DNA of 64,000 bases, from the NCBI GenBank assembly GCA_028047635.1, contig JAOFXR010000010.1, positions 1 through 64,000 on the forward strand. Reading direction: 5' to 3'. Positions 3,345-63,245 of the stretch are shown here, in pieces. The notes below the pieces were generated by a model. The model saw nothing but the letters and a program-made list of their open reading frames with translations. It searched no databases and was not told the DNA's origin. The translations under genes were made by a program, and so were the position numbers. The DNA comes from Verrucomicrobiales bacterium (GTDB taxonomy: Bacteria; Verrucomicrobiota; Verrucomicrobiia; Verrucomicrobiales; DEV007). Positions within the stretch are counted from its first letter, which is position 1. Each line of letters starts with the position of its first letter.

Positions 3345-6300
3345 ATGAATTTCTCATTAAGCCGAATTGGCTGGCGCGACGCAGTTGCCGGCGTTCTTCT
3401 CATTGGCTCGCTGACAGCTGGCCCTGTATTAGCCGATGAGCTGGTAGTATCCCGCCCGCTCTCTAACACGGTTCGGGATGCGGAGACCAAGACCCTTTTC
3501 AAACTGCTGAAGCCCGACGAATCCGGCGTGAATCATCTCTCCCCGATCATGGCTGATCATCCTCTCGCACGCGCCTACCATTCTTCCTCGGCCTGCGGCG
3601 CAGTGGCTATCGGAGACCTCGATCTGGACGGCCGTCCTGATATCTTCGCCAGTAACGGGCCTCTTGAGAATGGGCTCTACCTCCAACGTGATGTATTAAA
3701 GTTCGAAGACGTAACCGCGGAGGCAGGCGTGGGCGGCGGCGTGGATGCCTGGGCGGTCGGTATCTCCCTCGCTGATATTGATAACGATGGCGACCTCGAC
3801 ATTTATATCTGTAACTACGATTTCCCCAACCAGCTCTTCATCAATTCAGCAATTGAAAACGGCGTCAGAACAGAAGGTCCGATCAAGTTTGTAGATAAGG
3901 CGGAAGAACTCGGCCTCGCTATTGAGGATGGCTCAGTGATTCCGGCGTTCGGCGATTTCGACCGTGACGGTGATCTTGACGTTTACATTTTGACGCACCA
4001 GATCTACCGCGAGTTCGGCCGCCCTGATGAACCGATTCGTATTTTTGATAAAGACGGGAAGCTCTATGTCGGTGAAGAATGGCAGCGTTGGTATGTGGTT
4101 GATCAAAATAAGCGCGGCGACAACGGCGAGTTCCTTTACACTGAGGCTGGGCGCCCGGACTACTTTTTCCGCAACGACGGTGAAAAAGGTTTTGTGGAGA
4201 TCACCGAAGCAGCCGGCATCACTAAAGAGCGCCACTGGGGCAATTCTGCGACCTGGTGGGATTACAACTACGACGGCTGGCCCGACCTTTATGTGGGAAA
4301 TGATTTCAAGAGTCCCGACTACCTCTATCGTAATAACGGTGACGGCACCTTTACAGAGGTAACCGAAAAGCACGTTCGTCATACCACATGGTTCTCGATG
4401 GGTGCAGTTCAGAGCGATTTTAACAACGACGGTTACATCGATTTTCTTCTCGCAGACATGATGCCGAAAACGCATTACATGCAGATGGCTTCAATGGCTT
4501 CCATGTCAGATCGCCAGGACAACCTTGAGTATGTCACCGGTGCCGAGCAGATCATGCACAACACGATGCACATCAATACAGGCACGAATGAGTTTCTGGA
4601 AGGTGCCTGGATGGCCGGCGTGGCACAGACTGAGTGGACGTGGGCGATTCGCAGTGCCGATTTTGACAACGACGGCCTCTCTGACTTGTTTTTCTGTAAC
4701 GGAATCCCCCGTCAGTTTAATCATTCCGATTTACCGGAAATCAGCCATGCCACTCTTGTGGGCAAAACTCACTGGGATCACTATCGCAATACTCCAGTGC
4801 GCAAAGAGCAAAATTTGGCCTACAAGAATCTGGGAGATTTTCAGTTTACTGATGTGTCCGAGAAATGGGGCCTCGATCACCTCGGGATTTCCTATGGCGC
4901 CTCACTGGCTGATCTGGATGGTGATGGCCGTGTTGATTTGCTAACCTCAAATCTTGAAGATCCTCTCAGCATTTACCACAATCAAAGCGAAAGCGGAAAT
5001 CGTCTTGTCGTAAAACTGCAAGGAACACGAAGTAACACTCAAGGGATTGGAACCCTTGTCACGATTCAGACTCCTGACGGTTCAAAGCAAAGCCGCCAAC
5101 TTTTCCCCTACGGAGGTTATCTCGACGCCGATGAGCCCATTATCCATTTTGGTCTTGGAGACAATGAGACGATCACCAAGATGCGGCTCGAATGGCCGAG
5201 TGGCGAAATCCAGGAGATTGCAGATCTCAACGTCAACCATCACTACACGATTACCGAGCCGGACACCGGAATGAAGCCGGACCCGCCCGTCAAATCCCGG
5301 GACCTCCAGAACCCCTGGTTTCTTGAGGTGCCTTCACTCAAAGGCTTTTCGCATAAAGAATTGGAATTTGATGATTACGACAGACAGCCACTGCTTCCAT
5401 TCAAACTCTCACAGCTCGGCCCCGGCCAGGCATGGGGAGATATTGACGGCGATGGCGATCCTGATTTCGTTCTCGGCTGCGCCGCCGGACAGGCGACGCA
5501 GCTTTTTAGAAACCAAACCTCACCAGGTTCCAGCGATGTGATTTTAGCACCGGACCCGCAACCGGCTTTGGCTAAAGACGCTCGATACGAAGATATGGGG
5601 ATGCTTCTCGTCGACATCGATGCGGATGGAGATCTTGATCTTTATGCTGCTAGTGGCGGTGTTGAGGCGATGCCGAATTCTCCCGCTCTTCTCGACCGCC
5701 TTTACCTCAATGATGGAAAAGGAAATTTTACTCCTGTCGCGGAAAATACCCTGCCCGGTTTGATGAATAGTTCAGGCACCGTTTCCGCTTCTGATTTCGA
5801 CCACGACGGCGATCTTGATCTGTTTGTTGGCTCGCGTTCTATTCCCGGTGAATTCCCTCTTACCCCGCGAAGCGCTCTTCTCAGAAACGAAGGCGGCGTC
5901 TTCACCGATGTCACCGCTACACTGGCGCCCGGACTCGTAGAGCCGGGCATGGTGACCAGTTCCCTCTGGACTGACGCGAATGATGACGGATGGATCGATC
6001 TTCTCATCACGACCGAATGGGGCCCCATCAAACTCTTCAAGAATAATCAGGGCACCTTGGTTGATCAAAGCGAAGAGGCCGGACTTGAAGGTTCTGGCCT
6101 TGCCTCTCATGGATGGTGGACAGGCATCGATGGGCATGACATCGATAATGATGGGGATATGGACTACGTGGCGACCAATCTCGGTCGCAATTCCACCTAC
6201 AACGCGAGTCTTGAATCACCGGAATTGATCTTCTTTGGTGATTTCGATAACTCAGGAAAATCTCATATTGTAGAAGCACGTTTTCTCACTGAAAACGGCA

Positions 6301-20515: not shown

Positions 20516-21859
20516 TCAGGCGAAAGTTTGCTTAAGGACTCCGGTGCTGTCAGCAAAACGGTTCATTTCGCTTCCCATCGCTTGCGCTTGAGTCAGCCAC
20601 AAGTTTGCGAGCGGAGTTCCCTGTGAAAAATGCACATGCTTGCCCGTCTGAAATTTTCCTCCGCCGGAACCCGCGACAATGATAGGCAGATCTGAATACT
20701 GATGCGTTGAACCATCTCCCAGTCCCGATCCGTAGGTAAAAAGCGTGTTGTCGAGCAGGCTGCTGCCGTCAGATTCCTGAATGTTGTCCATCTTCTCAGC
20801 CAGATAAGCAAACTGCTCCATGTGAAAGCGATCCAGTTGGAGCAACTCATTGATGAACTTGCCCTGATTATGCGACATTTTGTGATGACTCATCGGCTTG
20901 TCAAAAAGACTATCGTAAGTGAACGGCGTGTCCCAACGTTCCGGACCAACCATGAATGTCGCCACCTGAGTCAGTCCTGCCTGCAGAGCGGCAACCATGA
21001 GGTCACCCATCAGACGGATGTATTCACCGCGCGGAAGATGCGATTCAGGTGGCTCTTCGATGTCTACTTTCGCCAACTCACTGCGCATTTTCTCCAACTT
21101 TGAGATTTGCTCTTCGATCGTACGGATCGAATCAAAATACTCGCCGAATTTCTCGCGGTCGCGGTAACCGAGGTTGCGCTGCATCGCCTTCGCATCTTCG
21201 AGAACGAGATCAGTGATATTCAGGTAAGTTTTTGCCTCTCCTGCCCCAAAAAGACGTTGATAGGCCTTTCGCGGATCCCGGATCGATGGAGCAACGTGTC
21301 CGGTGCCATACCAGGAAACATTATCGAACTGTATCGACTCCTTATTGTCCCGATGACTGTTACAGGAGAACTCCAGCGTGCGAAACGGAGTGCTCCCGCC
21401 CATGGAATCGGCGACAAGGTGATCCAGCGTTCGATCAAGCGGATAAGGCGAATCCTTAACCGAAGTCGGCGTCGCACTGCTCAAAAAACATGACGCACAC
21501 TGCGCATGCACGTCGGTGCCGTGAAGGTAGGTTCGGTCCAGTCCCGACAGAAAGGTCATCTTGTCCTTCAACCCTGCTAGCGGCTTCTGCGTCGCGGTTA
21601 GGTTCCACTCATGAGTGCCCGCCGTGAGTGTCTGGGGCTTTTCTAATGGAACCCCGTTTCCACCTCGAAACTTTGGAATGATCCCTTCGCCCTCACCGGG
21701 GAAAAAGCCCCTTCTGACGACTCCAATGGGAACGTAGAAAAGCGCGAATCGCTGCATCGGTGCTGCGGCCGGTTCAGCAAGGCTCTCAAGCCAGGGTAAA
21801 GAGAGAGTCGAGCCGCCAAGCCCCCGCAAAAAAGATCGTCGTGAAGTCGCTTTGATCAT
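20516..21859 (-). CDS. DUF1552 protein, Tat-exported
   Basis: A 447-residue protein of the DUF1552 family, which is found almost only in PVC and related bacteria beside DUF1592 cytochromes. The N-terminus has the Tat-type signal SRRSFLRGLGGSTLSLPWLE. Typical later segments are FYVPIGVVRRGFFP, HAQCASCFLSS and DNTLFTYGSGLGDGSTH. The fold resembles sulfatase/phosphatase-like (DUF1501) proteins. Its start overlaps the DUF1592 stop by four bases (ATGA), indicating coupled translation. The function is not known; the pair is generally thought to be an extracytoplasmic redox or hydrolytic unit. Confidence 0.9.
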   Translation of the reverse strand: MIKATSRRSFLRGLGGSTLSLPWLESLAEPAAAPMQRFALFYVPIGVVRRGFFPGEGEGIIPKFRGGNGVPLEKPQTLTAGTHEWNLTATQKPLAGLKDKMTFLSGLDRTYLHGTDVHAQCASCFLSSATPTSVKDSPYPLDRTLDHLVADSMGGSTPFRTLEFSCNSHRDNKESIQFDNVSWYGTGHVAPSIRDPRKAYQRLFGAGEAKTYLNITDLVLEDAKAMQRNLGYRDREKFGEYFDSIRTIEEQISKLEKMRSELAKVDIEEPPESHLPRGEYIRLMGDLMVAALQAGLTQVATFMVGPERWDTPFTYDSLFDKPMSHHKMSHNQGKFINELLQLDRFHMEQFAYLAEKMDNIQESDGSSLLDNTLFTYGSGLGDGSTHQYSDLPIIVAGSGGGKFQTGKHVHFSQGTPLANLWLTQAQAMGSEMNRFADSTGVLKQTFA

Positions 21860-23907
21860 GGTGCTTTGGCTAGAGCGGAGGGTTCAGGGAAATTGGATTT
21901 ATAACGAAAAGACTCGCTCACGACAATCTCTTTGATGATATCGCGAAACGGAAAATCAGAGTCACGGCAGTTGTCCAGCGCGCCGTCGATTGCAAGGGAG
22001 TCAGCAGGCGCGAGCTCACGCCCCAAGGCAAAAGACAACAGATGGCCGGCGAATCCGCTGACAAACCTCTCCTTCTCAGCAAGAATGGCATCTTTGAATT
22101 CAACTGGAGTATTGAAAGGATACTTTCGAAAAAGAACGCCCTCCGAATCCACTTTTCGACCATTCTCATAGCTATCCCGCCATAGGCCGGTCGGCCCATA
22201 GTTCTCCATCGCGAAGCCCAGTGGATCAATCTGAGCGTGACAGCCTTTGCAATCTTTCCGCTCGCGATGAGCGTCAAGGCGCTCGCGCAAGGTCATGTTC
22301 TCCTCCCCATGACCCGGTTCCTCCGTCAAAGCAGGTACGTCGCCAGGAGGTGGCTCAGGAGGATCATTGAACACCACCGCACCGATCCAGGCTCCGCGGG
22401 TAATGGGTTGAGTTCGCGTTGCATTGGACGTCATGGTCATGACAGCAGCATTTGTGATCACACCACCTTCACGCCGGTCAGTGATCGGGACCCGATCATA
22501 CACAATCATCGTGGGAGGCGTGCTCTTGCCCCTTTTCCCTGTCGCATACCAGGACTTGAGTAAGTCGCTCCGAAAGCTGAAATCCGGATCGATCAGCTCA
22601 ATCAAGGGACGGTTCTCGATCAAAACCGTTTCAAAAAGCAGGAGCGGTTCCAGCATCATGTGCATACTCACCCGGAACTTCGCGAAATAGAACTCAGGGT
22701 GCTCATCCGGGTCCGGTTGCGAAGATACGAGGCGATCCAACTGCAGCCACTGAGAAGGAAAGCTATCGCAGAACCGCTTCAGCTTTTTATCATTCAACAG
22801 GCGCTCCGCCTGCATCCGAAGTTCCTCCGGCTCTGACAAATCTCCTGATGCCGCGAGTTCAAGAAGTTCGCGATCCGGAATACTGCCCCAGAGAAAAAAC
22901 GATAGACGCGACGCCAACTCATAATCGGAAGCAGACTCTGACATGTCGTCAGAATTGGCACCGTCATAGAGGTAGAGAAATCGTGGTGAGGCCAGCGCAG
23001 CCGCTCCAACCAGTTTAATGGTGTCAGTGAAAGGAAGCCCCGCTTCTGCTTTTGCTAGAGCCAGCTCAGTGTAGCGGTCGATTGTGACCTCATCGACCTC
23101 GCTCCGAAACGCTGAGTAGAGAATCTCCGAAATACGACGACGAAGCTCGGCCTCAAGGTCCCCCGTTCCAGGATCAGCAAACCACTCCTGCCACTTCCCG
23201 CAGTTTTTTGCCTGAAAGTCAGGACTGTCAAAAATGGAGCGGCTTAGCTTCAGGAATGATTCCATAAGCAGCGGCGACAGCGACAGGTGATCCCCCCGAT
23301 TGTCGAAACCATGTTCAGCTCTGAGGTCTTGAGGGAAAGCAGCGACCCGACCGAGGCGTGGCTGAATGAGCTGAGACTTCCCAAGCGGCCGGCACCCCAC
23401 CCCGGCTTTCTGCGGCATCACGCCCGAGGCCGGATCGAAGTAGGGCTTAATCTCGCGAAGCATTTCTTCAGGCAACGTGAAGACAGTGACCTTGAGATCA
23501 AAGAGGTCTTCCACAGCGTTGCTGTATTGAAAGCGCGTCATACGCCTCATCGGTGCCTGAGGGTAAACCTTTTTGGCGTTGATGGACTTGTGAAGCAACG
23601 ATTCCAATTCAGCAAGCAAGTCACCCCTCTCCCTTTTGGTCAATTGGGGTTCATCCTCAGGAGGCATCTCCTCGTACTCAATCACATCGACAAGTTCTTC
23701 CAAAAGTTCCGTATGGCCCGAAAGCTGAGAAAGGCTTTCGATCTCCAGTAAATTGACTTTTCCTTTCACTTTGTCATTCTCGCCATGACATCCGGTGCAG
23801 TTCTTCGCAAAGAGAGGCTGGATCAATGTCGAAAACGAATCAGCTCCGTGTGTCGATGAGGTCACGGTAAAAAGAAAAAATCCGGCGGTGAGAAGGAGAC
23901 GCATCAC
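21856..23907 (-). CDS. DUF1592-family planctomycete-type cytochrome c protein
   Basis: An exported 683-residue protein with a signal peptide (to about residue 21) and a c-type haem motif CTGCH at C37-H41 in a PSCyt1-like head. The body has the DUF1587, DUF1592 and DUF1588 pattern (PMRRMTRFQYSNAVEDLF; ASDYELASRLSFFLWGSIPD; GVITNAAVMTMTSNATRTQP) and ends in the DUF1585-like part. A second CxxCH, C553-H557 (CKGCH), lies in the DUF1588/1585 region. It is the first gene of the DUF1592-DUF1552-DUF1080 operon. It should be a membrane-side or periplasmic haem protein working with its DUF1552 partner. Biochemical activity is not established for this family. Confidence 0.9.
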   Translation of the reverse strand: MMRLLLTAGFFLFTVTSSTHGADSFSTLIQPLFAKNCTGCHGENDKVKGKVNLLEIESLSQLSGHTELLEELVDVIEYEEMPPEDEPQLTKRERGDLLAELESLLHKSINAKKVYPQAPMRRMTRFQYSNAVEDLFDLKVTVFTLPEEMLREIKPYFDPASGVMPQKAGVGCRPLGKSQLIQPRLGRVAAFPQDLRAEHGFDNRGDHLSLSPLLMESFLKLSRSIFDSPDFQAKNCGKWQEWFADPGTGDLEAELRRRISEILYSAFRSEVDEVTIDRYTELALAKAEAGLPFTDTIKLVGAAALASPRFLYLYDGANSDDMSESASDYELASRLSFFLWGSIPDRELLELAASGDLSEPEELRMQAERLLNDKKLKRFCDSFPSQWLQLDRLVSSQPDPDEHPEFYFAKFRVSMHMMLEPLLLFETVLIENRPLIELIDPDFSFRSDLLKSWYATGKRGKSTPPTMIVYDRVPITDRREGGVITNAAVMTMTSNATRTQPITRGAWIGAVVFNDPPEPPPGDVPALTEEPGHGEENMTLRERLDAHRERKDCKGCHAQIDPLGFAMENYGPTGLWRDSYENGRKVDSEGVLFRKYPFNTPVEFKDAILAEKERFVSGFAGHLLSFALGRELAPADSLAIDGALDNCRDSDFPFRDIIKEIVVSESFRYKSNFPEPSALAKAP

Positions 23908-24070
23908 GGCTGAAATATGACTTTTGATGCTCGATTCAACAAGGACGGATTAAGGGGATTTCTCAGCCCTACCGGCCAAGACGAATCGTGCGACGACGAA
24001 GATTCATACTTTCAAAGCAAGAATATTCTGGCAATACTTGCTATAATAAACAATCTCCCATCAAACGATC

Positions 24071-24697
24071 ATGAGAAGACTTTTCAAACCTATCGCTGCC
24101 TCTATCGCTATTCTTGCGACCACATCCCCCGCCTTCAGCCAGGAAAAAACAATCAAGCCAATTGCTAACCCTCCCATCCCCGCAGCCACCCAAGCAACCA
24201 CTCCCGCGACACCGCCGACTCCCTCAACGAAAACGCAGGTGCCAACCATTCCGAACGTGGAAAAGAAGGCGCCTCAGAAACCTACTGCTCCGGCGAAACC
24301 TCGTGAGTATGTGATCCAGTCAGGAGACAATCCATGGCTCATTGCGAAAAACCACGGAATCAGCCTCGCCGCGCTCATCGAGGCGAACAAAATCAAAGAC
24401 GCAAAGAACCTCAAGATCGGTGATGTTCTCATTTTACCTGAGGGTACCCAATCAAAGAACGCACCAGGCCCTAAGAAACCACAAGCCCCGACAGTAGCGC
24501 CCAAGACGGCTCCTGCTCCACCAACTCAGGAAGGCAACGACTGGATTCTTTACACCATTCAAAAGAGAGACAACCCATGGAACATTTCAAAAGCTCTCAA
24601 AGTAGATCACCAGAAAATCATCGCTCTCAACGAGGGCACTGATTTCACCAAGCTCGACATCGGCCAGCAAATCAAAGTGCCTAAAGCGCCTAAGTGA
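24071..24697 (+). CDS. Secreted protein with two LysM domains
   Basis: A 208-residue exported protein with a signal peptide (MRRLFKPIAASIAILATTSPAFS). A Pro/Thr/Lys-rich linker follows (about residues 25-75), then LysM 1 (about 78-122, YVIQSGDNPWLIAKNHGI and LKIGDVLILP), a second Pro-rich linker, and LysM 2 (about 160-205, YTIQKRDNPWNISKALKV and LDIGQQIKVP). LysM modules bind N-acetylglucosamine in peptidoglycan or chitin. There is no catalytic domain. The gene is isolated between two leftward DUF operons and divergent from the DUF1592 gene. Confidence 0.9.
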   Translation: MRRLFKPIAASIAILATTSPAFSQEKTIKPIANPPIPAATQATTPATPPTPSTKTQVPTIPNVEKKAPQKPTAPAKPREYVIQSGDNPWLIAKNHGISLAALIEANKIKDAKNLKIGDVLILPEGTQSKNAPGPKKPQAPTVAPKTAPAPPTQEGNDWILYTIQKRDNPWNISKALKVDHQKIIALNEGTDFTKLDIGQQIKVPKAPK

Positions 24698-24717
24698 TCA
24701 CTCACCTCGTCGGGACT

Positions 24718-24743
24718 TCATGCAGTCAAAAGCGACTGCATGA
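24718..24743. terminator. Stem-loop between convergent genes
   Basis: A perfect 10-bp inverted repeat (TCATGCAGTC and its complement) with a 6-base loop sits in the 47-base gap between the LysM and DUF1501 stops. It lacks a long T run on either strand, so it is a likely but not typical terminator. Confidence 0.5.
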
Positions 24744-24744
24744 T

Positions 24745-26190
24745 CTACGCTAACAACCCTTCAACCACCCGCGCCTCGTCATTTTGAACGAGTGATTGGT
24801 CGGTTCCGTTTCGCTTGAAGGTAAGCTCCTCTGACTTAAGACCAAAGAGGTGCAGCAGCGTCGCGTGATAGTCGTAGTGGTTCACGACATCTTCGACCGC
24901 GTGATGACCAAATTCATCAGTCGCTCCGTGAATATGGCCGCCTTTGAATCCACCACCGGCAACCCACATACTGAATCCGTAGGTATTATGATCACGTCCC
25001 ACTTTTTTACGATCACCCTTCTTAGCTCCTGAGCGATTCTGGATCACGGGTAACCTTCCCATCTCGCCTCCCCAATGCACCACGGTGCTATCGAGCAAGC
25101 CACGCTGCTTGAGATCCATCACCAGCGCCGCGGCCGGTTGATCGACATAGCGACACGCCGCAGGCAATGAAGTGAGGATACTACTGTGATTGTCCCAGGT
25201 TTGATTCCCCGTAAAAATGGAAACGAATCGCACACCCCGTTCGACGAGACGACGAGCAATCAAACAACGCGATCCAAAATCGTTCGTCTCTTTTTTGTCG
25301 ACCCCATACATGCGAAGCGTGGCCTCACTCTCCTGATTAATATCGAGAGCATCTTTGGCGGCGACCTGCATTCTCGCAGCGAGCTCGAAACTTTGAATGC
25401 GGGCCTCCAGCTCCGTTTCGCCCGGGCGCTGATCCGCGTGGTCACGATTGAGACGCTCCACAAAATCGAGGTAGCGGCGCTGCGCATCCCCTTTGAGCGA
25501 CTTCGGTGGATCTAGATTGAGAATCCGAGGTTCCTTAGGGCGAATCACGGTTCCTTGATAGACAGAAGGGAGCCACCCGTTGGTAAAATTGTCGACGCCT
25601 AATACGGGTAGCCCGCGTGGGTCGGTTAAGGCAACGTAGGCTGGAAGATTCTTATTCTCAGCTCCCAGTCCATAAGTAAGCCAGCTGCCCAGCGTAGGGC
25701 GCCCCGTCAGAGCGGATCCGTTGTGGAGCGCATTAATCGATTGCCCATGATTATTGACCCCGGTGTGCATCGACCGAATCATCGTAATGTCATCGGCGAT
25801 CCCGGCCATATTCGGAACCAGTTCGCTGAAGTCCATCCCACTCTCTCCATGCTTGGAAAAGGCCCAGGGCGATCCCATCACCTCGCTGCTAGCACCGGCG
25901 GCATCATCATATTTTACTTCCCCCGGAAAATCCTGACCATCGAGACGATTCAGCTCAGGCTTCGGATCAAACATATCGATATGACTCGGGCCTCCCTGCA
26001 TGAACATGGAGATCATCGCCTTCGCCTTTCCAAAGCCGTGTGTAGGCGGTTTGGGCAGCAGATCAAAATGCTGCGGTCCGGAACCGGCAACTTGTGGGTT
26101 CGCAAGAAGCCCCTGCTCCTTCAATAAACTCGCCACGGCGATCGCGCCCAGTCCATATCCGCGTTCTAAAATCTCACGTCGAGTCACCAT
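24745..26190 (-). CDS. DUF1501 protein
   Basis: A 481-residue protein of the DUF1501 family (sulfatase/alkaline-phosphatase-like fold, function unknown). The N-terminus MVTRREILERGYGLGAIAVASLL is a Tat-like export signal with a modified first Arg pair. Typical family segments are AKAMISMFMQGGPSHIDMFDPKP, MIRSMHTGVNNHGQSINALHNGS, and HWGGEMGRLPVIQN. The gene begins two bases after the stop of the DUF1553 gene, the standard PVC pairing, so they are co-transcribed. The missing evidence for catalysis is general to this family. Confidence 0.92.
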   Translation of the reverse strand: MVTRREILERGYGLGAIAVASLLKEQGLLANPQVAGSGPQHFDLLPKPPTHGFGKAKAMISMFMQGGPSHIDMFDPKPELNRLDGQDFPGEVKYDDAAGASSEVMGSPWAFSKHGESGMDFSELVPNMAGIADDITMIRSMHTGVNNHGQSINALHNGSALTGRPTLGSWLTYGLGAENKNLPAYVALTDPRGLPVLGVDNFTNGWLPSVYQGTVIRPKEPRILNLDPPKSLKGDAQRRYLDFVERLNRDHADQRPGETELEARIQSFELAARMQVAAKDALDINQESEATLRMYGVDKKETNDFGSRCLIARRLVERGVRFVSIFTGNQTWDNHSSILTSLPAACRYVDQPAAALVMDLKQRGLLDSTVVHWGGEMGRLPVIQNRSGAKKGDRKKVGRDHNTYGFSMWVAGGGFKGGHIHGATDEFGHHAVEDVVNHYDYHATLLHLFGLKSEELTFKRNGTDQSLVQNDEARVVEGLLA

Positions 26191-26192
26191 GA

Positions 26193-28865
26193 TCAGTCAA
26201 TATAGAGAAATTCATTTGTGCTGAGAAGCGCATGCGTCAATGCAGTGAGTCCGAGAAGGCGAGGATTTGCGTTCTCAGGCGACACTGGCCCTGAAAGTCG
26301 CTCCAGTGTCGCTGGCTCCACCGTGTAAAAAGCTGTCTGAAGCGTCAGAAAATCAGAGGCTTCCGACAATTCTCTTTCGTCAGGACTGCGACCATAGGCG
26401 AGTTTCCACGCATGTTTGATGGTGTCTTCGATCGACGCCTTGACGGACTCCTTTTCGAGTCGCTGCGCAAAATACTGTGAGTGCTCCCGCATTCCAATGT
26501 TGTTCATCAAGAGTAAGCTCTGCGGGCTTACCGTCGTAATCGGACGAATCTCACAGTTCGCATCCGTCATCGGCGGCGCATCAAAGGCGGCGAACAGATC
26601 AAGTGGGCGCGACCTTCGAATCTGAATGTAAATACTGCGACGAAACTCTTGTCCATCCAGAGAGATGAATTTCCCCGTCTGACGGCCTGCCGTATCAGTC
26701 GTATCAATTCCGATCACGACTTGCCCCTCTTCGGTGAACATCACAGGAACGGGCTCACCAAACTGGCTGGAACTTAACTTACCGGAAACCGCGAGCAATG
26801 AATCCCGCAGGGTCTCGGCTTCGAGGCGACGTTTTGACTGACGACTGAGAAGCCGATTGTCCGGGTCGATCGTATCACGCACATCGTCTCGTTGAGACTG
26901 CTGCTGCCATGTATCACTGGAAAGAATCAGGCGGTGCAACGCTTTCAAACTCCATCCGTTTGCGACAAACTCCTGAGCCAGCCAATCGAGTAACTCAGGA
27001 TGAGAAGGCTTTTCGCCGAGAAAGCCGAAGTCAGCGACTGACTTGACGAGGCCCGTCCCGAAGTGGTGCATCCAAACCCGGTTCACCATCACCCGGGCAA
27101 GCAAAGGATGTGTTCCATCGGTGAGCACCTTCCCTAAAGCCAAACGCCGGCCGGAAGTAGGAACCGTATCGAGGCTCTCAGGTAATTTCGTTTCCCTCCA
27201 GCCGGAAAGAACATCCAAATCCGAAGGCGTAACCTTGCCCTTTGGAGACTCCGGATCACCACGATGAAAAAGAAATGTCGCCGGAATTGCCTCCGGTTTC
27301 ATGGGGGCCTCCGTAAATGCCTGCACCAATTCGTTCTTCGGCTTCTTCTCACGAATTTTTGCGGCCTCAGCGGTCATCGCCTTCAGCTCTTCGTTATATT
27401 TGGTTTTGTAAGTCTGGTCGTAGAGATAAAGCGTGCTGGCGGTAAGCTTATTGATAGTCGGGTGCCCCTTCAAAAGAGTAACCTGCTCCGGAGTCCTTTC
27501 CTTCACTACCGTGTTGTAGGCCGTTCGAATCGCAGCGCGTTCCGACTCATCGCTCTTCAAAAGCTCCTTCTCTAAAACGATCTGAATAAAACCCTTCTGC
27601 CTTTCAAGCCTCGCCGCTTCCACCACTTTAGCTTCAGCGTCGATGGCCGCCGCTTTTGCTTTCTCTTCAGTCGTTTGGAGCGAAACCAGTCGGCTGTTCG
27701 GATTCTTCCACTTCACTGGATTAAATCCTGGCTGAAAAACCGATCTGAGCTCGTAAAAATCAGCCTGAGTGATGGGATCGTAGCGATGATCGTGACACTC
27801 AGCGCATTGAATTGTCATCCCGTAAAAGGCTGTGCTAACGATCTTCATCGTATCAGTGATCGAAGCGTTGCGAGTAAGCAGATCATTCTTCGCCCCGGTT
27901 CCATCCGGCGCCATCCGGAGGAAACCGGTCGCGGTCAGCAGCTCCGCATAACGAGCCCGCTCCACTTCGCTCCCGGAATTAGCATGAACCCCTTCAAGCG
28001 AAGCGATCTCATCTCCAGCCAGCTGCTCTCTCACAAACTCATCAAAAGGTTTATCCGAGTTCAATGACTGAATGACATAATCGCGGTATTTCCACGCATG
28101 CTTTCTCTCAAGATCTTTCTCCGTGACTCCGTCGGAATCAGCATACCCTGCCACGTCAAGCCAGTGGCGCCCCCATCGCTCACCATACGCAGGTGACGCA
28201 AGCAAACGATCAATCAAGGCTTGGTAAGCACCGGAAGGATCCTTTTGAGAATTGGCAGCGAAGGCATCCACTTCTTCTGGTGTGGGCGGGAGCCCCGTCA
28301 GATCAAATGCCGCCCGCCGGATCACAGTGAGGGAATCGGCGCGTGGCGAATGGCTCAGAGACTTCTCCTTGAGCTTCCGGGAAATAAACGCGTCAATGGG
28401 ATGCTTACTTTCCGTCAGCGCAGGGACCGTCACGTTGGCAAGCGGCTGAAAAGACCACCAGCTCTGCTCTTCTTCTGTAAAAAGCGGCGCATCCTCCAAA
28501 GACTCCGGCTCTGGTCTCGCCGTAACCGCTCCCGCCTCAACCCACGCCGCAATCGTTGCAATGTCCTTATCCGGCAATTTACCTTTCTCTTTGGGCATCT
28601 CGCCCTCCCGCAGCATTTTCACGAGAAGGCTCTCCTCGGGCTTTCCCGGAATGATCGCAGGCCCCTCATTACCGCCTTTCAGCAGGAACCGCTGCAGCCG
28701 CACATCAAGGGTGCCTTTGGTTTCGCCATCTTCTCCGTGACAATGAAAACAATGCGTTTTCAAAATAGGCCGCACGTCACGCTCGAATGTCAGGGGCTCC
28801 TCTGCGGTGGCAGTGAATGTGACAGTCGCGAAAAACAACAGTCCAGCGAGGCTTCGGTGATTCAT
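26193..28865 (-). CDS. DUF1549/DUF1553 planctomycete-type cytochrome c protein
   Basis: An exported 890-residue protein. A signal peptide (to about residue 22) is followed by a PSCyt1 haem domain with CFHCH (C39-H43), RDVRPILKTHCFHCHGEDG being typical. The DUF1549 domain starts near residue 160 (HPIDAFISRKLKEK; GERWGRHWLDVAGYADSDG) and holds a second motif, CAECH (C354-H358) in CAECHDHRYDPITQADFYEL. The DUF1553 domain forms the C-terminal third (HPLLARVMVNRVWMHHFGTGLV; SKRRLEAETLRDSLLA). It pairs with the downstream DUF1501 gene. The start at 28865 is preferred for its signal peptide. The role is presumed to be periplasmic redox chemistry linked to the partner protein. Confidence 0.92.
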   Translation of the reverse strand: MNHRSLAGLLFFATVTFTATAEEPLTFERDVRPILKTHCFHCHGEDGETKGTLDVRLQRFLLKGGNEGPAIIPGKPEESLLVKMLREGEMPKEKGKLPDKDIATIAAWVEAGAVTARPEPESLEDAPLFTEEEQSWWSFQPLANVTVPALTESKHPIDAFISRKLKEKSLSHSPRADSLTVIRRAAFDLTGLPPTPEEVDAFAANSQKDPSGAYQALIDRLLASPAYGERWGRHWLDVAGYADSDGVTEKDLERKHAWKYRDYVIQSLNSDKPFDEFVREQLAGDEIASLEGVHANSGSEVERARYAELLTATGFLRMAPDGTGAKNDLLTRNASITDTMKIVSTAFYGMTIQCAECHDHRYDPITQADFYELRSVFQPGFNPVKWKNPNSRLVSLQTTEEKAKAAAIDAEAKVVEAARLERQKGFIQIVLEKELLKSDESERAAIRTAYNTVVKERTPEQVTLLKGHPTINKLTASTLYLYDQTYKTKYNEELKAMTAEAAKIREKKPKNELVQAFTEAPMKPEAIPATFLFHRGDPESPKGKVTPSDLDVLSGWRETKLPESLDTVPTSGRRLALGKVLTDGTHPLLARVMVNRVWMHHFGTGLVKSVADFGFLGEKPSHPELLDWLAQEFVANGWSLKALHRLILSSDTWQQQSQRDDVRDTIDPDNRLLSRQSKRRLEAETLRDSLLAVSGKLSSSQFGEPVPVMFTEEGQVVIGIDTTDTAGRQTGKFISLDGQEFRRSIYIQIRRSRPLDLFAAFDAPPMTDANCEIRPITTVSPQSLLLMNNIGMREHSQYFAQRLEKESVKASIEDTIKHAWKLAYGRSPDERELSEASDFLTLQTAFYTVEPATLERLSGPVSPENANPRLLGLTALTHALLSTNEFLYID

Positions 28866-28926
28866 GGTCAGTTGGTTACCGGAATACCAAACACTGTAAG
28901 GCTGGGCTAACACCGGGCAACGAACC

Positions 28927-39286: not shown

Positions 39287-41503
39287 TTAGTAAATGCGGA
39301 CCGACCAGCTGTTCACCGGTGTTCTCGAAAGCCTCAATGTAGAGAGCGCCCTCGCATCATTCTCGTGAAACCCGAGAATAGGGCGGCCGTCAAAAGCAAA
39401 CGAAGGGCTGCTCGTTTCATAGCGATTGCGAGAAGGAAAAGGTTCAGTCGCATCCGGTAGCGAGTCGGCGATGGTCAATTCTGCACGAAATCCAAGCACG
39501 GAATCAATGGAATCAAGATCCCACTCGTGCTCATGGAGGTAACTCCTCGGAATCCGAATCGTGAGTAGCTTCGCTCCATCATCGGCGGTATCGAGTGTGG
39601 AAGCAACCCCCTTGGCGCTTAAAACCATATTATACCCTGCGCCGAAAGATCCGAGGCGAATCGCAGACGTTAATCCCGGCCCGTCTGTCGCCTTGGTATA
39701 AACCTCGACCGGTTCGATCGCTCCAAAGCTGCAAACGCCATCACTGGATCGAGCATCCAGGAAAAGGCGCACTTGTATCGCCGCCTTGTCGCCCATGTCA
39801 GGAATCCGAAATCCCTCAAGTCGGGCGATGGCATAAAGAGCCTTCTCATCAGCATCGAAGAGCCACGATGCTTTCCCTTCGGGCCGCTGCTTGGCTTCCA
39901 TTGTTCCAGCCGGTCTTGCATTGGCGTAATCAGACCATGCCCGCATAGCAATTGGTTCACCGAGCACTAGATCTTTGGTCGCCTCCATCTCTCGAGTGAA
40001 ACGAACTTTTCTCCCGTCAGCCTCGACCTGAATCCAAACATCATTCTGAGATTGCGCTTCGTTTCCGCCTTCAAAATCAAAAATCGAAAACACAGTCTTT
40101 GTGCCAAGCGGAGAGACTGAAAATGGAGTTGAAGGTCCTACCTTTTCGCCCATTCCGACACGAAACGTTCCCGAAACAGGTTTGTCATAACCGCTCACGA
40201 GATCCCATTCAATTCGCAGCTTATTCGAAACATTGATGTAATGACGGGACTTCCACATCGCTGTCACAGGTCCCATTCGAACCGGCAAATCGACGAGCTC
40301 TGCACCGATGGTATCTTCAAGAACAAAGCTGAACCGCCCCAGCTCATCACTCGCTGCGATCGGGTAAAAAAGGTCAGACCCATCCCGCGATTTCCCGACG
40401 AGCGGCCGCTGGTAGCGGAATAGAAGTTGGGTCGTTTCTCCCGCGTCTACTTTAAAGCGCTGCGCAATATCAACAGGAATGATAGAGCGGCCTACCGCGA
40501 GCGCCCCGATACTTCCCTCCTGCGGCTCGCTTGACTGATTCGTAATCGCGACCGTGACGTTTATATTGCTGTTATTCTCGTAAGCGGCAACCGCCGCATA
40601 AGTGAATTTTGAAACGCGAGGTCCATTTTTGAGATCATCAAAGATGACTTCGCCCAGATACTCATTGGCTTTCATCGCCGGATGGACTCGCTCACGCGTT
40701 GGCAAATCAGGCCCGAACTTAAAAATGCTGGTGAGTTTATCGCCAATCACCTGCATACCAGCCTGAGGTTGGGTAGCGGGATCGACTCCACCTCCAAGCC
40801 TGACTTGATGACCTCCCAGATCCATAAAGAGCACCTCATTACGTGCAGCAACTTCACGAGCGGCAGTGGCATAGGGTCTGGTAATCCCCCACTCCATGGC
40901 ACCTTCACCAAAGTTAACGAGGGTAGGACTAAAAATGATAACATCCGTCTTAGCTGCTTTTCCAGCGTTGATAATTTCCTGAATCGCAAGCTGGTAGCTG
41001 TCGATCGAGAGATAGCCAAACGAGTCGAAAATACCAAACTGAACGAGAAGCAAATCGGGATCATGAACAAACGCATCGGTCGCGGCACGACGAAGCCCAT
41101 CCAGTGCATTTCCATCGGAAGTAGTCAGATTTTCCAAGGTGATTTCGTTACCAAGATAGGCAGAGACCTTCGCTGAACCTCCATCGGGCGGATTCAGCAA
41201 CTTAACTCCCCCCGTATAGAAAAACTCACGGGCAAGACGAGTCAAAAACATTCCCGTGTAAGAGAACAGCGGATTGCCACTTTCCCAGGCACTGGGAAGC
41301 GGCGTGATGCCCCCCATGACACCATCACCAATCGCAACGATGTGAACAGGATCACCTGCCTCGAGTTTCGCAAAACTGCGAGGAATATAGCGCTTGAACC
41401 GTTCCCTTTGGTCGAGAGTCAGCGGGTAACCAAATAGATTCGCGATTCCGAAAACCAGCACCAGCCCAATGGCGAGTCTTGCGATTATTGTGGTGTGTCT
41501 CAT
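39287..41503 (-). CDS. Large membrane-anchored SGNH-like protein without the serine
   Basis: A 738-residue protein with an N-terminal membrane segment (IIARLAIGLVLVFGIANLFG). The first half (about residues 45-290) has the SGNH layout: VAIGDGVMGG stands where block I GDS(L) is expected, with Gly61 in place of the serine; LLVQFGIFDSFG matches block III; and RERVHPAMKANEYLG supplies H274. The second half has an Ig-like segment and then a DOMON or CBM9-like part (about 535-730, KASWLFDADEKALYAIARLEG). The loss of serine argues for a binding role. The intact SGNH gene follows it, so the two may work as a pair. Confidence 0.7.
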   Translation of the reverse strand: MRHTTIIARLAIGLVLVFGIANLFGYPLTLDQRERFKRYIPRSFAKLEAGDPVHIVAIGDGVMGGITPLPSAWESGNPLFSYTGMFLTRLAREFFYTGGVKLLNPPDGGSAKVSAYLGNEITLENLTTSDGNALDGLRRAATDAFVHDPDLLLVQFGIFDSFGYLSIDSYQLAIQEIINAGKAAKTDVIIFSPTLVNFGEGAMEWGITRPYATAAREVAARNEVLFMDLGGHQVRLGGGVDPATQPQAGMQVIGDKLTSIFKFGPDLPTRERVHPAMKANEYLGEVIFDDLKNGPRVSKFTYAAVAAYENNSNINVTVAITNQSSEPQEGSIGALAVGRSIIPVDIAQRFKVDAGETTQLLFRYQRPLVGKSRDGSDLFYPIAASDELGRFSFVLEDTIGAELVDLPVRMGPVTAMWKSRHYINVSNKLRIEWDLVSGYDKPVSGTFRVGMGEKVGPSTPFSVSPLGTKTVFSIFDFEGGNEAQSQNDVWIQVEADGRKVRFTREMEATKDLVLGEPIAMRAWSDYANARPAGTMEAKQRPEGKASWLFDADEKALYAIARLEGFRIPDMGDKAAIQVRLFLDARSSDGVCSFGAIEPVEVYTKATDGPGLTSAIRLGSFGAGYNMVLSAKGVASTLDTADDGAKLLTIRIPRSYLHEHEWDLDSIDSVLGFRAELTIADSLPDATEPFPSRNRYETSSPSFAFDGRPILGFHENDARALSTLRLSRTPVNSWSVRIY

Positions 41504-41565
41504 GTTCCTCTTCTGACGAGCGTATGACGGGAGAGGCACGCGCATTATTAGACTGAGTTTCCAAT

Positions 41566-41624: not shown

Positions 41625-44600
41625 TCAAGTAGCAGTGGAGGCATCCTTCTCATTGCTGAGAAATGAATCAATCCCCGCCTCGGGAAGAAAGAAACCGGCC
41701 ATCTGCAACTTAGCAGGTGTCACTTCCATTTCTTCGAGTGCCTCATAGTGAGCTACTGCCTCTTTGTGCTCCAACGGTCCTAGTGTGGAGGAAAGGTCAT
41801 CGTTGGATCCCGTCAGGAGACTGACGAGAACACATCCGGTGATTTCATTCTTGTCACGGCCGGCAAGGAATTTAGTGAAAGCATCCTGAACTGACTCATC
41901 CACGTCCTCCGCTTCATCGGGAAGGTAGATGGTCTCATTCACTACGTTGGACATCCGGAGTTCACCACCAGTGGTGAACAGAATATCATGTTCAACAGTG
42001 AATCGACGAATCGCTTCATCAACACGGAATACGGGTGGAAAGCTATAATCAACGATCAGCGCGCCTGGCTTAAGCGCTTTGATATCGAGAACACCGGGAA
42101 GGTTTGAGGAAGCTACGACGATCGATGCCTCGTAGACTTCAGGAGGAAGGGCTCCCCCGTTCTTAACGATATCAACTTGTCCCTGATAGCCGGCATCGCG
42201 CACAAGGTCGCGGCAACGACTCATCTGATCATCAGTTTGATAGGGATCACAGAGAATCAAGCGCTTGGGATGCTCCATGACATCAAGCATCAACAGGAGC
42301 GTTCCAAAACCAATCGACCCGAGGCCAACCGCTGAGAGAGTCTCATTGGAAAGGTCGCGTCCTGTCTTGGCTAGAATGCCCTCGACTGATTTAACAATCG
42401 TAGCCGAACGGGTCGCATCACCGGTCGTGATTTCCGGAAGATCTTTAAGCCCCGCAATCCATTCGCTGATCTTACGACCATGATCGGTGGTCATCGGGAT
42501 CACTCCGGTCAACGAGACGCACTTGGCACCCGCCTCGGCGGCCATTTCAAGAGCGGCGATTGTAGGAGCCTTCACCGAATCGAGATTTTTGTAAAAATCC
42601 GTCTCAAAGCAAGGAAGCATCAATACACCGATCTTGCCTTCATCCAGCTCATACACATTGGTAAGACGTGGCTTGCCGGCAAAGAGTCGCTCGGAAATCT
42701 CGTCACGGGTCATGCCGGACAAGCTGACGAGCACATCCGGGATATAGGCCAGTGCGACCGCATCCAATTTCGGCATTTCCTCAACGGTATCCTCAATTGA
42801 GATATGGGCGAAATCTTCAAACGAGGGAATGAGCTCTGAATCATCTTCCGAATCAACCACTGCGGCAGTAGCTGCTTCAATTCGCTCACTGGAGAGATAC
42901 TGAGACAATTGTTCAATGTTGGGATGAGTCAGAAAGACATCCACAGGAACGTCCTGCCCGAACTCGTCGGAAACATCCACGATGATTCGCAACGCCATCA
43001 GTGAGTCCCCTCCCATTTCAAAGAAGTTATCGGTTACCCCAAAATCTTCGGAATCAAAATTGCGGCTGAATACTTTCCAGAGGTGCTCCTCTGCCGAGGT
43101 GCGAGGAGCCACAGTTTCCCCATCGGAGGAAGCTCCTATCGTCGGCATTGGAAGTCGACGTCGATCAATCTTCCGGTTCGGCGTAAGAGGAAATTCCTCT
43201 ACGCGCTTGAAGAAAGCAGGAATGTAACTCGCAGGCAGATTTACAGCGAGGTTCTCACGAATCGTTGCCACATCAAAAGAGCTGTTGTCAGAGATAAAGT
43301 ACCCGACTAGACCTTCGCCTGTTGGTAAGTCTTCGCGTTTCGCGACGACCGCTTGCTTAATGCCGTCGATGCTCTCCATCTGCTGCTCGATATCACCAAG
43401 CTCCATCCGAACACCCCGCACTTTGACCTGGAAGTCGACACGTCCAAGGCACTCAAGCTTGTTGTCCCGGTTCCAGCGAGCGAGGTCGCCGGTTCGGTAG
43501 AGTCGCTGTTTGCCAGCCCCTGGAATATCAATCTCACGAAATGCTTCCGCAGTCAGATCCAGCTGGTTACGATAGCCACGGGCGAGACCGGAACCACCGA
43601 TCCAAAGTTCACCCGTGAATCCCTGCGGCACGAGTTTGTTATTTCCATCAAGAATGTAGACCTGGGTATTCGCAATTGGAAGACCAATTGAAATGGTCTC
43701 ATCACCTTCCTTAATCTTCTCAATCGATGACCAGACCGTTGTCTCTGTTGGACCGTAAAGGTTCCAGACTTCAGCAGCCGAATTAACCAGCGTGTTGGCA
43801 AGACCTCTCGTGAGGGCTTCACCACCGCAGAAAATCCGTAGATCGCTCTTCCCTTCCCAACCGCTGTCGAGAAGAAGCTGCCAGGTTGCAGGGGTTGCCT
43901 GCATCACAGTGATGTCCTCTTCGGAAAGCAGGTTGGCAAGACGGCGACCGTCTTTTACATCATCCCCACTCGCCATGACCACTTTCGCGCCGGCAAGAAG
44001 TGGAAGAAAAAGTTCCAGCAATGAGATATCGAAGGAGAGAGTCGTCACCGCAAGAAGGGTGTCATCTTTATCGAGTCCCGGAGCCTTCTCCATCGAACGG
44101 AGGAAGTTCACGGCGGCACGATGAGGAATTTCAACGCCTTTCGGAGTTCCCGTCGAACCCGAAGTGTAGATGATGTAAGCGAGCGAATCCGCTGTAACAC
44201 CCTTCACGTCCGGAGCCTTGGAGGTTCCTTCGATGCTGTCGAGGTTAATGGACTTCCATCCACCTGCCGGTGCTTCAGAGAAATGCTTTCCGGAGGCGAT
44301 CAACGCCTTCGGTGCGGCATCCTCAAGCATCAGGTCGAGTCGCTGAGCTGGGAAATCAGGATCAAGAGGCACGTAGGTAGCACCCGCTTTCAACACTCCG
44401 AGGAGCGCTCCGATCATCCGGGGTGAACGATCAGCGAGAACGCCGACATTGTCCCCGACTCCAACTCCATCAGCAATAAGATCACGAGCGACGCCATTCG
44501 CGAGGCGATTGAGCTTTCCGTAAGTAGTGTGATTGTCCTCAAAGACAACCGCAACATCTTCATCTTTCTCAGCGGCAACCGCGGCAATAAGATTGTGGAG

Positions 44601-59959: not shown

Positions 59960-61237
59960 TCACCCAGCCGACATCGCTGCCAAATCAGCTACCCGGAAAC
60001 CGTAGTCCAGTTCGGTAGGCAGCTCGCAGATTTCGCGAACCGCGGTAAAGAGATCCTCGAACTTATCAATGAATACATCACCAACGAGTAGGTCGGTGAG
60101 CACAGGGCGAAGCTCAGGATGCTTTTTGACGAGCTTCCCGAAATTGAACTCAGGATGGTAGAAGGCGCAGACGATCTTTCTCATCCGCTCAATTGCGAGG
60201 CAGACATCGTTTCCATATTGCTCGAACTGAGCCGCACTGGTATCCCCTTTTTCAAGAGCCAGATCAATCGCATCGGCGGCGAGTTCGCCTGACTTGAGTG
60301 CCAGAAAGACACCGGAAGAGAAAACGGGATCCAGGAAGGCGAAGGCATCACCAACGAGAACAACACCATCTCCTGCGCAGTAATTAGAGCGGTAACTGTA
60401 TTCACCCGTGATCCAGTATTGCCCTACTTGCTTACCTGACTCGAGGTGCTCGGTGATCCACACATTCTCCTCGATTTCACGATCAAAAATCTCACTTGGC
60501 TCGCGTGAATCGCGGTAAAGGTAATCGCGATCGGCAACAAGCCCCACGCTGACCCTATTCCCTCGCATTGGGATATACCAAAACCACCCTTTGTTAGGGA
60601 TGTAGGCAACTGTGGTCGAGCCTGCATCGAGACCCGGGTCGCGCATAGCCCCTTCGTAGTATGTCCAGATGGCAATTTTATTCAGTTCCGGATCTCGATT
60701 TCGCCACTTCTGTTTGCTCGCGACGACACAATCCCGACCTGAACCATCAATGACGATCTTTGCAAAGACGTCTCGCGACTCACCCTCTAAATTCTCAACC
60801 GAAACGCCGATCACAGCGCCGGACTCATTCTTGATGAGTTGAGTCACCTTTTGCTCATCAAGCACTTCGGCACCAAGCTCCTTCGCGCGATCGACCAACA
60901 TTTGATCAAACTCCATTCGCTCAACCTGCCAGGTCACCGCAGACGCTCTGTTATCATGCTCAAAAAAGTAGAACGGCTTCGAGATCTGACCGTCCGTCGA
61001 GACGAACTGAACGCTGTGCTTCTGCTGAAATCCGATCTCATCCATTTTCTCTGTGAGACCAAGCCGATCGAGAGTGAACCAGCAAAAGGGCATCATTGAT
61101 TCACCGACATGGTAGCGTGGGAACTTCTCTTTCTCGAGAACAAGAACGCGTCTCCCCTTCTCAGCCAGTAAGGCAGCTGAAGTGGCTCCGGCGGGGCCAG
61201 CTCCGATTACGACTACATCCCAATTTGAATCACTCAT
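59960..61237 (-). CDS. FAD-dependent oxidoreductase with halogenase motifs
   Basis: A 425-residue flavin enzyme. Residues 9-30 hold the FAD loop GAGPAGATSAALLAEKG. FPRYHVGESMMP follows, as in flavin halogenases and geranylgeranyl-reductase-like proteins. The halogenase WxWxIP signature is complete (W218-F-W220-Y-I-P223). Lys73 lies where the PltA/CmlS-type enzymes have the haloamine lysine (QKHSVQFV). GDAFAFLDPVFSSG is the second FAD motif. Many relatives with these motifs do not halogenate, so the activity is inferred. It is the last gene of a four-gene operon, 18 bases after the chorismate-lyase-like gene. Confidence 0.75.
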   Translation of the reverse strand: MSDSNWDVVVIGAGPAGATSAALLAEKGRRVLVLEKEKFPRYHVGESMMPFCWFTLDRLGLTEKMDEIGFQQKHSVQFVSTDGQISKPFYFFEHDNRASAVTWQVERMEFDQMLVDRAKELGAEVLDEQKVTQLIKNESGAVIGVSVENLEGESRDVFAKIVIDGSGRDCVVASKQKWRNRDPELNKIAIWTYYEGAMRDPGLDAGSTTVAYIPNKGWFWYIPMRGNRVSVGLVADRDYLYRDSREPSEIFDREIEENVWITEHLESGKQVGQYWITGEYSYRSNYCAGDGVVLVGDAFAFLDPVFSSGVFLALKSGELAADAIDLALEKGDTSAAQFEQYGNDVCLAIERMRKIVCAFYHPEFNFGKLVKKHPELRPVLTDLLVGDVFIDKFEDLFTAVREICELPTELDYGFRVADLAAMSAG

Positions 61238-61255: not shown

Positions 61256-61882
61256 CTATTTAGTTACGGTCTGAACCCACTGTTCGGATTCATTCGAGCG
61301 CGGCAAAATCTCGACGATATCGGCGAAAACCATACCATCAGCATCGAGAAGCTGATTGCATCGCCCGTAAAGAATCTCGCCTTCGCGCTGGTCGAGAGCC
61401 CCGGCAATCAACGGGTCTCCCGGAACTGAAAAATAGCTCGAGGGCTTGCCGCTGTGAACAACTTCGTAATCTCCCAGAATGCCTCCAAGCGGTTTCTTAC
61501 CGCTGATGACTTCCTCCCGAACCTTTTCAGGGAGCGATTTCAGCTGAATCGCAATGGCCCCATACTCGACCGGCTTATCAGAAGCCTTCGCGTGCAAACT
61601 AACCAGACGCATCACGAATGCATCGGTGGACTCATGCGCATGAACTTCCAGATAGAGTTTCGAATGATGAAATGCCGCCAGAGTCGGGGTCATATCATTC
61701 TGATGAACAAGTAACGAGCGATAAGGATACGGAACCTCACTTCCTTCAAGAAAGGTAAAGTCAGGCAGTTCCGCGCCTGCTTTCTCGTAGAAAAAGTGGA
61801 ATGGCAACAGTTGATGAAGTGCCTCTGCCAGCGCATCGCTCGCAGCCTGCCTCATTTGAGATGGATCAGGTGTAGCGTGCAT
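61256..61882 (-). CDS. Chorismate-lyase-like (UbiC/DUF98-type) protein
   Basis: A 208-residue protein. By pattern it resembles the UbiC fold: YPYRSLLVHQNDMTPTL (R55), KPLGGILG (130-137, cf. the PLG loop of UbiC), LYGRCNQLLDADG (171-183) and DIVEILP with E191, in the same order as in the E. coli enzyme that makes 4-hydroxybenzoate from chorismate. The first conserved arginine of UbiC is not clear here. The start at 61882 overlaps the radical SAM stop by 17 bases; the longer frame to 61924 is less likely. The match is by eye only, so a different function is possible. Confidence 0.5.
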   Translation of the reverse strand: MHATPDPSQMRQAASDALAEALHQLLPFHFFYEKAGAELPDFTFLEGSEVPYPYRSLLVHQNDMTPTLAAFHHSKLYLEVHAHESTDAFVMRLVSLHAKASDKPVEYGAIAIQLKSLPEKVREEVISGKKPLGGILGDYEVVHSGKPSSYFSVPGDPLIAGALDQREGEILYGRCNQLLDADGMVFADIVEILPRSNESEQWVQTVTK

Positions 61883-63245
61883 CACGATGTTCTTCGAGGA
61901 AGAAGCCATGAAGAAGGCGGTCAATTTGAAGCAACCCGTCGCGACTCACGACGATGTCTCCCTTATCAATGGAAAAATAGCCCTGCTCCTTGAGCGCGGC
62001 GAGTTCAGCGGGGAACCGGGCCTCAGGATCAACGCCATACTTGTCTTTGAAATACTGCAGGCTGGTCCTACCGAGCTTGAGTTGGAGAACAAACTCGCGA
62101 ATAAAACGCTCTTCGGCATTCGTCTTGTAAGAACGGAAAATAGGAAGTTCTCCGCTATCGACCTGAGTCATATAGGGCCCCACATCAGCTTGGTTCTGAT
62201 AATGCACTCCTCCGAAATGACCAAAGCTGGCAACCCCGGCAGAGAGTAAATCAGCCCCTTCCCACAGACTGTCACGATAGATAAACTTTGTTGTCTCGGG
62301 ATTTTTCACCACGGTGTAGGCGCTGTTCACGGTGTAGCCGGCGTCCTGAAACTGATCAAACGCCCAGTCGACCCACCTTCGCTTCGTCTGCCAATTCGCG
62401 ACGGGAGCAGTAATCCGACCAGAGGACTTCATCTCTTTGTAAATCGTTGTATTATAGGGAATCTCCATCTGGTAAATCGTGACACAATCAGGAGATTGCT
62501 CGATCGCCGTTTCGACGCATCGCTTCCAGTTGTCCTCGGTCTCATCCATCATTCCTGCGATGAGATCAATATTGACCTGATCGAATCCAAGCGTGTTCGC
62601 AAACCCGAGAGCGCGAAACGCTTCTTTTGATCGGTGCGCCCGTCCATTCACTTCGAGAATGTGATCATCAAAGTTTTCAATTCCGAGGCTGAGCCTGGTT
62701 ACACCGATGTCACGAAGTGCTTCGAGCTTCTTCTCAGTCAGCGTTCCCGGCTCGCACTCGAAAGCGACTTCTTCAGCCTCATCCCAGGAGAAAGAATCCT
62801 TCATTCGATTCGTCAGATCCGTGAGCTGTTTGATCGAAAGATAACTTGGGGTGCCGCCTCCAAAATAAACGAATTGAGGTTTCCTCCCCGCGAGATACGA
62901 GGTTTGCGCGTAACGCTCAAACTCCTTGATCCCCGCATCGAGATAAGCGTTGATCTCATTGGAATTTTTATCGGTGTAAACGCGGAAATAGCAGAAATGG
63001 CAACGTTTCCGGCAAAACGGGATATGAAAATAAACTCCGAGATTCGTGTCCTTGGGAGTTGGTGAGTTGAGAACCTCGTGGATTTGCTTCTGTTCTTTAT
63101 CCTCACGATCCCAGAAGGAAAACGGAGGGTAGTTTGCTACGAAGTAATTTCCGACCTCCGTGTCATCCCCTTCACCATCGGAGAGCGGGACGTTCAATTT
63201 ATCAATAAGACCGTCGGAGGATTTGGAATTGGCTGTTTCAGACAT
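61866..63245 (-). CDS. HemN-like radical SAM protein
   Basis: A 459-residue radical SAM enzyme. The cluster motif is C78-RKR-C82-HF-C85, preceded by VYFHIPFC as in coproporphyrinogen III oxidases. FVYFGGGTPSYLS binds SAM, and VAFECEPGTLTEKKLEAL, RLSLGIENFDDHIL and QVNIDLIAGMMDETEDNW follow the HemN order. A HemN-type C-terminal domain is present (residues about 370-455). Given its operon partners it is more likely a HemN-like methyltransferase or other tailoring enzyme than the haem-pathway oxidase, but this is inferred. The start at 63245 lies 30 bases after the PQQ-type gene. Confidence 0.85.
   Translation of the reverse strand: MSETANSKSSDGLIDKLNVPLSDGEGDDTEVGNYFVANYPPFSFWDREDKEQKQIHEVLNSPTPKDTNLGVYFHIPFCRKRCHFCYFRVYTDKNSNEINAYLDAGIKEFERYAQTSYLAGRKPQFVYFGGGTPSYLSIKQLTDLTNRMKDSFSWDEAEEVAFECEPGTLTEKKLEALRDIGVTRLSLGIENFDDHILEVNGRAHRSKEAFRALGFANTLGFDQVNIDLIAGMMDETEDNWKRCVETAIEQSPDCVTIYQMEIPYNTTIYKEMKSSGRITAPVANWQTKRRWVDWAFDQFQDAGYTVNSAYTVVKNPETTKFIYRDSLWEGADLLSAGVASFGHFGGVHYQNQADVGPYMTQVDSGELPIFRSYKTNAEERFIREFVLQLKLGRTSLQYFKDKYGVDPEARFPAELAALKEQGYFSIDKGDIVVSRDGLLQIDRLLHGFFLEEHRDARYT

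Follow-up and report, generated by a model that had tools for sequence, protein, structure and literature searches.

How does a giant enzyme that joins a lipid to an amino acid release its chain, when its last carrier protein is followed by several hundred residues that match nothing in Pfam? The question is raised by a 64,000-nucleotide stretch of a Verrucomicrobiales genome (hereafter the window), which encodes on its minus strand a hybrid PKS-NRPS megasynthase of iterative type (Table 1). The Pfam domain order is KS-AT-DH-MT-ER-KR-ACP-C-A-PCP, followed by the C-terminal domain studied here; active-site motifs were found for KS, AT, MT, ER, KR, ACP, C, A and PCP, and the DH region reads DDHRFWDSVVFP. 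The pocket code of the last adenylation domain, which is kept with small variation in most of the genus, lies near what we take to be a glycine code, so that the A domain is presumably glycine-like. The product chain would be a reduced acyl group, possibly methyl-branched, on a probably glycine-like residue.

Since the last PCP ends near residue 3582, the unmatched tail of about 400-420 residues behind it is real. Used as a query (P0002), the terminal domain found no Pfam family at E ≤ 1, SDR and NAD-binding models included. A preliminary description had placed four motifs and a cysteine in this tail, and all are present in the translated minus-strand reading frame: GAKCVSLTGV begins at residue 3704, TTGDATRSATIV and GLGSIGFG follow, and TGCVLVSLL begins at residue 3934, residue 3936 being the Cys.

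Table 1 Features of the megasynthase locus, in window coordinates
Feature	Position	Strand	Basis
SGNH/GDSL-hydrolase-like protein, 752 aa, 79 bases downstream of the megasynthase	39287..41545	-	
Hybrid PKS-NRPS megasynthase, 4004 aa	41625..53639	-	ORF, Pfam domains, active-site motifs
Terminal release domain, TAD/AAR-like, residues about 3611-3993	41661..42809	-	PDB phmmer; AlphaFold2 model and VIA-align
Cys3936, predicted acyl-carrying nucleophile, aligned to AAR C294 and to carmabin TAD Cys2238	41832..41834	-	Alignments
Asp3798 in LILCDPY, after the second Rossmann strand	42246..42248	-	Invariant in 58/58
Dinucleotide loop GLGSIGFG, residues 3772-3779, opposite AAR GATGDIG	42303..42326	-	Profile alignment
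TTGDATRSATIV motif, residues 3738-3749, opposite AAR TTGNTHTAYVIC	42393..42428	-	Motif position and profile alignment
Last PCP, immediate chain donor	42894..43055	-	Pfam PP-binding 3529-3582; GGDSL at 3543
Adenylation domain, pocket code DILQICLVWK	43140..44579	-	Pfam and code extraction

Fold and family of the terminal domain

To characterize the fold, the terminal domain was modelled with AlphaFold2 (mean pLDDT 87.4, pTM 0.87) and the model was compared with known structures. In VIA-align it superposes on the acyl-ACP reductase (AAR) of S. elongatus with Z 28.7 over 311 residues at 3.1 Å, whereas the best generic Rossmann match reaches Z 14.2 and nothing else exceeds that value; Foldseek is in agreement. 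The AAR-like fold of the preliminary description is thereby supported, and the different fold it had named as a counter-indication, that of a saccharopine or shikimate dehydrogenase, was rejected: shikimate dehydrogenases appear only among the generic Rossmann matches, at TM 0.3-0.45.

The sequence comparisons used a profile from an alignment of 58 relatives, which also underlies all conservation counts given here. Against the PDB, this profile retrieved the carmabin TAD (E 2e-123), PigE 4ppm (E 3e-12) and the S. elongatus AAR chains (E 1.8e-6), and its alignment with the AAR sequence, identical to 6jzu over 341 residues, has a probability of 97% and an E value of 1.6e-10. The single domain sequence gave no AAR match, and in NCBIfam a weak PigE match alone (E 8e-6); TIGR04058, the AAR equivalog model, did not match the domain at E ≤ 1, nor was a match to it found in the host genome. 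The resemblance to AAR is beyond chance, and the domain has the AAR fold but is not AAR itself. In the global profile alignment C3936 falls on C294, TTGDATRSATIV on TTGNTHTAYVIC and GLGSIG on GATGDIG, which agrees with the order noted earlier, a nucleotide loop and then a late Cys. As the alignment of these two in local mode ends ahead of the Cys, the pairing of C3936 with C294 rests on the global alignment and the fold. The domain thus shares with AAR (6jzq, 6jzu, 6jzy, 6jzz) the fold, the loop ahead of the late Cys and the position of that Cys, but differs in sequence (about 15% identity), in its extra N-terminal residues, in its fusion to an NRPS and in that no ADO partner was seen.

No other relative comes nearly as close to the terminal domain as the 'TAD' of the carmabin NRPS, whose structure is known (Z 51; E 5e-72); the label comes from the PDB ('TAD from Carmabin Biosynthetic Pathway'), whose records do not spell the abbreviation out. 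The model aligns with it at Z 51.3, with an rmsd of 1.5 Å over 371 residues, and phmmer against the PDB gives full-length matches to 9e4s (E 4.6e-72) and 9e4x (E 1e-71), both deposited under 'Amino acid adenylation domain protein'. The TAD entries (9e4s, 9e4u, 9e4x, 9e50, 9e56) include, by their titles, complexes with NAD and NADH (9e50, 9e4u) and a Cys2238-dephosphocoenzyme A disulfide. C3936 stands opposite the GC of TAD in both the phmmer and the profile alignments; counted from the construct and chain ranges, this Cys would be Cys2238, being the only one that fits the number.

The two domains share full-length homology at about 35% identity, the Cys, the NAD-type loop and the C-terminal place directly behind a carrier protein; they differ in that the window domain ends an iterative-type PKS-NRPS whose last module is glycine-like, whereas the carmabin TAD sits on an N-methylating cyanobacterial NRPS module. 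The terminal domain is a member of the TAD family, a branch of the AAR fold found behind the last PCP. The earlier view that NRPSs do not normally carry such a domain is not supported, since the carmabin TAD is closer than AAR and homologues are C-terminal on many PKS/NRPS proteins. The window domain adds a member to a structurally solved, mechanistically obscure family whose NRPS fusions were already known.

Among other release domains, the SDR-type R/TD domains of NRPSs and CARs occupy the same place and follow the same reductive logic; they have a Ser/Tyr/Lys catalytic fold without an acyl-Cys. The R0 domain of ChmP (chalkophomycin) has two Rossmann-like motifs, with the loops GSAAGPA and GGG (PMC11085572). 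PigE (prodigiosin) and TamH (tambjamine) contain AAR-like thioester-reducing domains with the same Cys, numbered C296 and C887, respectively (PMC8341465, PMC9594044), but these are fused to a PLP aminotransferase, which the window domain lacks.

Acyl-enzyme, cofactor and released product

In AAR the acyl group is transferred to C294, CoA or ACP leaves, NADPH binds in the same cleft and an aldehyde is released (PMC7089970); PigE and TamH are assumed to proceed likewise. The proposal that Cys3936 carries the acyl chain in the same way was to be abandoned if the residue varied among orthologues; it is invariant in 58 of 58 relatives, as are G197, S200 and G202 of the GxxSxG loop (P0002 numbering), and in VDYSFP the D, S and P do not vary either. 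The match to C294 and this conservation both favour the proposal. NADPH, which the preliminary description had assumed, is doubtful: the site is not of NADPH type by sequence, with the invariant Asp3798 standing where the NADPH-binding AAR has TAR. This residue suggests NAD(H) over NADPH, a preference also based on the NAD and NADH complexes of TAD.

On these grounds, the N-acyl-aminoacyl chain would pass from the PCP phosphopantetheine to Cys3936 to give an acyl-enzyme, NAD(H) would then bind in the same cleft, and the chain would leave, most likely as a C-terminal primary amide as in the carmabin, vatiamide and hectoramide pathways. There is good support for a transfer of the acyl chain to C3936 and a subsequent release that depends on NAD(H). 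The family, the fold, the place behind the PCP and the conservation of the Cys and the nucleotide loop are shown; the acyl-Cys intermediate itself, the NAD(H) preference and the amide product are what we infer. That the domain belongs to the TAD family and goes through the acyl-Cys3936 step appears very probable.

The amide reading follows from the pathways to which the nearest relatives belong. The formation of C-terminal primary amides by NRPSs was called unstudied in 2024 (PMC10949194). Such an amide is found in carmabin A, dragonamides, vatiamides E/F and hectoramide B (PMC10949194). In HcaD (hectoramide B) and VatR (vatiamide) the PCP is followed by a C-terminal domain of 434 residues, labelled amidotransferase, for which release of the peptide as a terminal amide, by ammonolysis, was proposed but not assayed (PMC10949194); a kinship of these domains with the window domain is putative. 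By analogy, a TAD-family domain working through acyl-Cys3936 may release a primary amide, and we judge the chances of this evenly balanced: the full-length TAD match, the amide proposal for VatR and HcaD and the same amide in carmabin A speak for it to that degree. On the other side, the conversion of a thioester to an amide needs no redox step, and the invariant nucleotide-binding residues suit a reductase better; no ammonia source fused or adjacent to the megasynthase was seen in the gene neighbourhood. A further objection is that the identity to TAD is only about 35%, with TAD on open or long branches of the tree.

The aldehyde reading, which the preliminary description favoured, derives instead from the AAR fold and the invariant cofactor residues. 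Here the same acyl-Cys3936 step would be followed by reduction with NADH and release of an N-acyl amino aldehyde, as by AAR, PigE and TamH, and we hold this as a real but tentative possibility. C3936 corresponds exactly to C294, through whose acyl form AAR proceeds to the aldehyde (PMC7089970); PigE and TamH reduce thioesters in biosynthesis with the same Cys (PMC8341465, PMC9594044); the nucleotide-binding residues do not vary; and in Streptomyces sp. NBC_00470 an ACP and a ketosynthase gene are found near a free-standing relative. However, the nearest relative comes from a pathway with a primary-amide product, and no aminotransferase, ADO or aldehyde-using enzyme was recognised beside the megasynthase gene.

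Amidation could also make use of the cofactor, if hydride transfer from the acyl-Cys were followed by ammonia addition and return of the hydride, giving an amide without net reduction. We consider this unlikely; if true, the lone verrucomicrobial gene would by itself suffice to make N-acyl amino acid amide lipids and would belong to the core of its genus. It is highly improbable that NAD(H) is structural or spent and the chain leaves non-reductively, whether as free acid, as lactam or in cyclised form: reductase-like domains of fungal PKS-NRPSs have turned non-redox, to go by what PMC11085572 gives on CpaS R*, but here, unlike in a decayed reductase, none of C3936, Asp3798, the GxxSxG loop or the D-S-P of VDYSFP varies, and no cyclase is on record for the TAD-type family. 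The glycine-like code also raised the possibility that the amide arises by PAM-like cleavage at a terminal glycine; as a general mechanism this was rejected, since other members have different codes in their last modules and no additional glycine module is present in hectoramide (PMC10949194).

Distribution of the domain and its host locus

A scan of bacterial genomes identified 166 relatives, of which 79 loci were kept, in Verrucomicrobiales, Opitutales, Planctomycetota, Chloroflexota, Hahella, Erwinia, an alphaproteobacterial MAG and many actinobacteria, Streptomyces included; a phage collection searched for the domain gave no match. In most relatives examined the domain ends a PKS/NRPS protein, as in the lone gene of Streptomyces fungicidicus, which encodes FAAL-like, ACP, KS-AT-KR-ACP, C-A-PCP and C regions before the terminal domain. 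In Pantoea stewartii the domain is flanked by KS-AT, monooxygenase and NRPS genes, and Hahella, Erwinia and one MAG encode it as a protein of its own (frames of 419-456 aa). The tree groups the carmabin TAD with verrucomicrobial, planctomycete, chloroflexal and Hahella/Erwinia members, away from the actinobacterial ones, a placement that is weakly supported and involves long branches. The domain is thus part of a large AAR-fold family that spans phyla, much of it ending PKS/NRPS proteins, and for which there is no Pfam model; genome mining thereby gains a way to find a release domain for which Pfam gives no annotation.

Some actinobacterial loci (L022:3360-15137, L077-L101) have a condensation-type domain after the last PCP, ahead of the TAD-like domain, and share the last A-domain code DARSVVLIN; one protein of this type that was checked has a FAAL-like start and is encoded by a stand-alone gene. 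On a Streptomyces plasmid (L122:10550-11746), a free-standing relative occurs near ACP and ketosynthase genes.

Within the host genus, the domain is present in 29 of 33 genomes, that of the window included, and the four genomes without it are 53-77% complete; it is in none of 284 well-assembled genomes from the wider class. One flank of the gene carries malate dehydrogenase, MalQ and NagA-like genes in conserved order, and the other the SGNH-hydrolase-like gene; this distribution and neighbourhood indicate that the megasynthase gene is resident in the genus and not part of a large cluster. Such a lone, genus-conserved gene is a simple system for deciding between amide and aldehyde release. The SGNH-hydrolase-like neighbour is kept in 7 of the 10 genus members examined, some of them with incomplete flanks, and is possibly a partner acting on the megasynthase product.

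Elsewhere in the window, positions 59960-61237 (minus strand) encode a FAD-dependent halogenase/geranylgeranyl-reductase-like protein beside a radical SAM protein (61866-63245), and positions 21856-28913 (minus strand) encode, in this verrucomicrobial genome, planctomycete-type cytochrome/DUF1592 and DUF1553 proteins of the PSD/PSCyt families.
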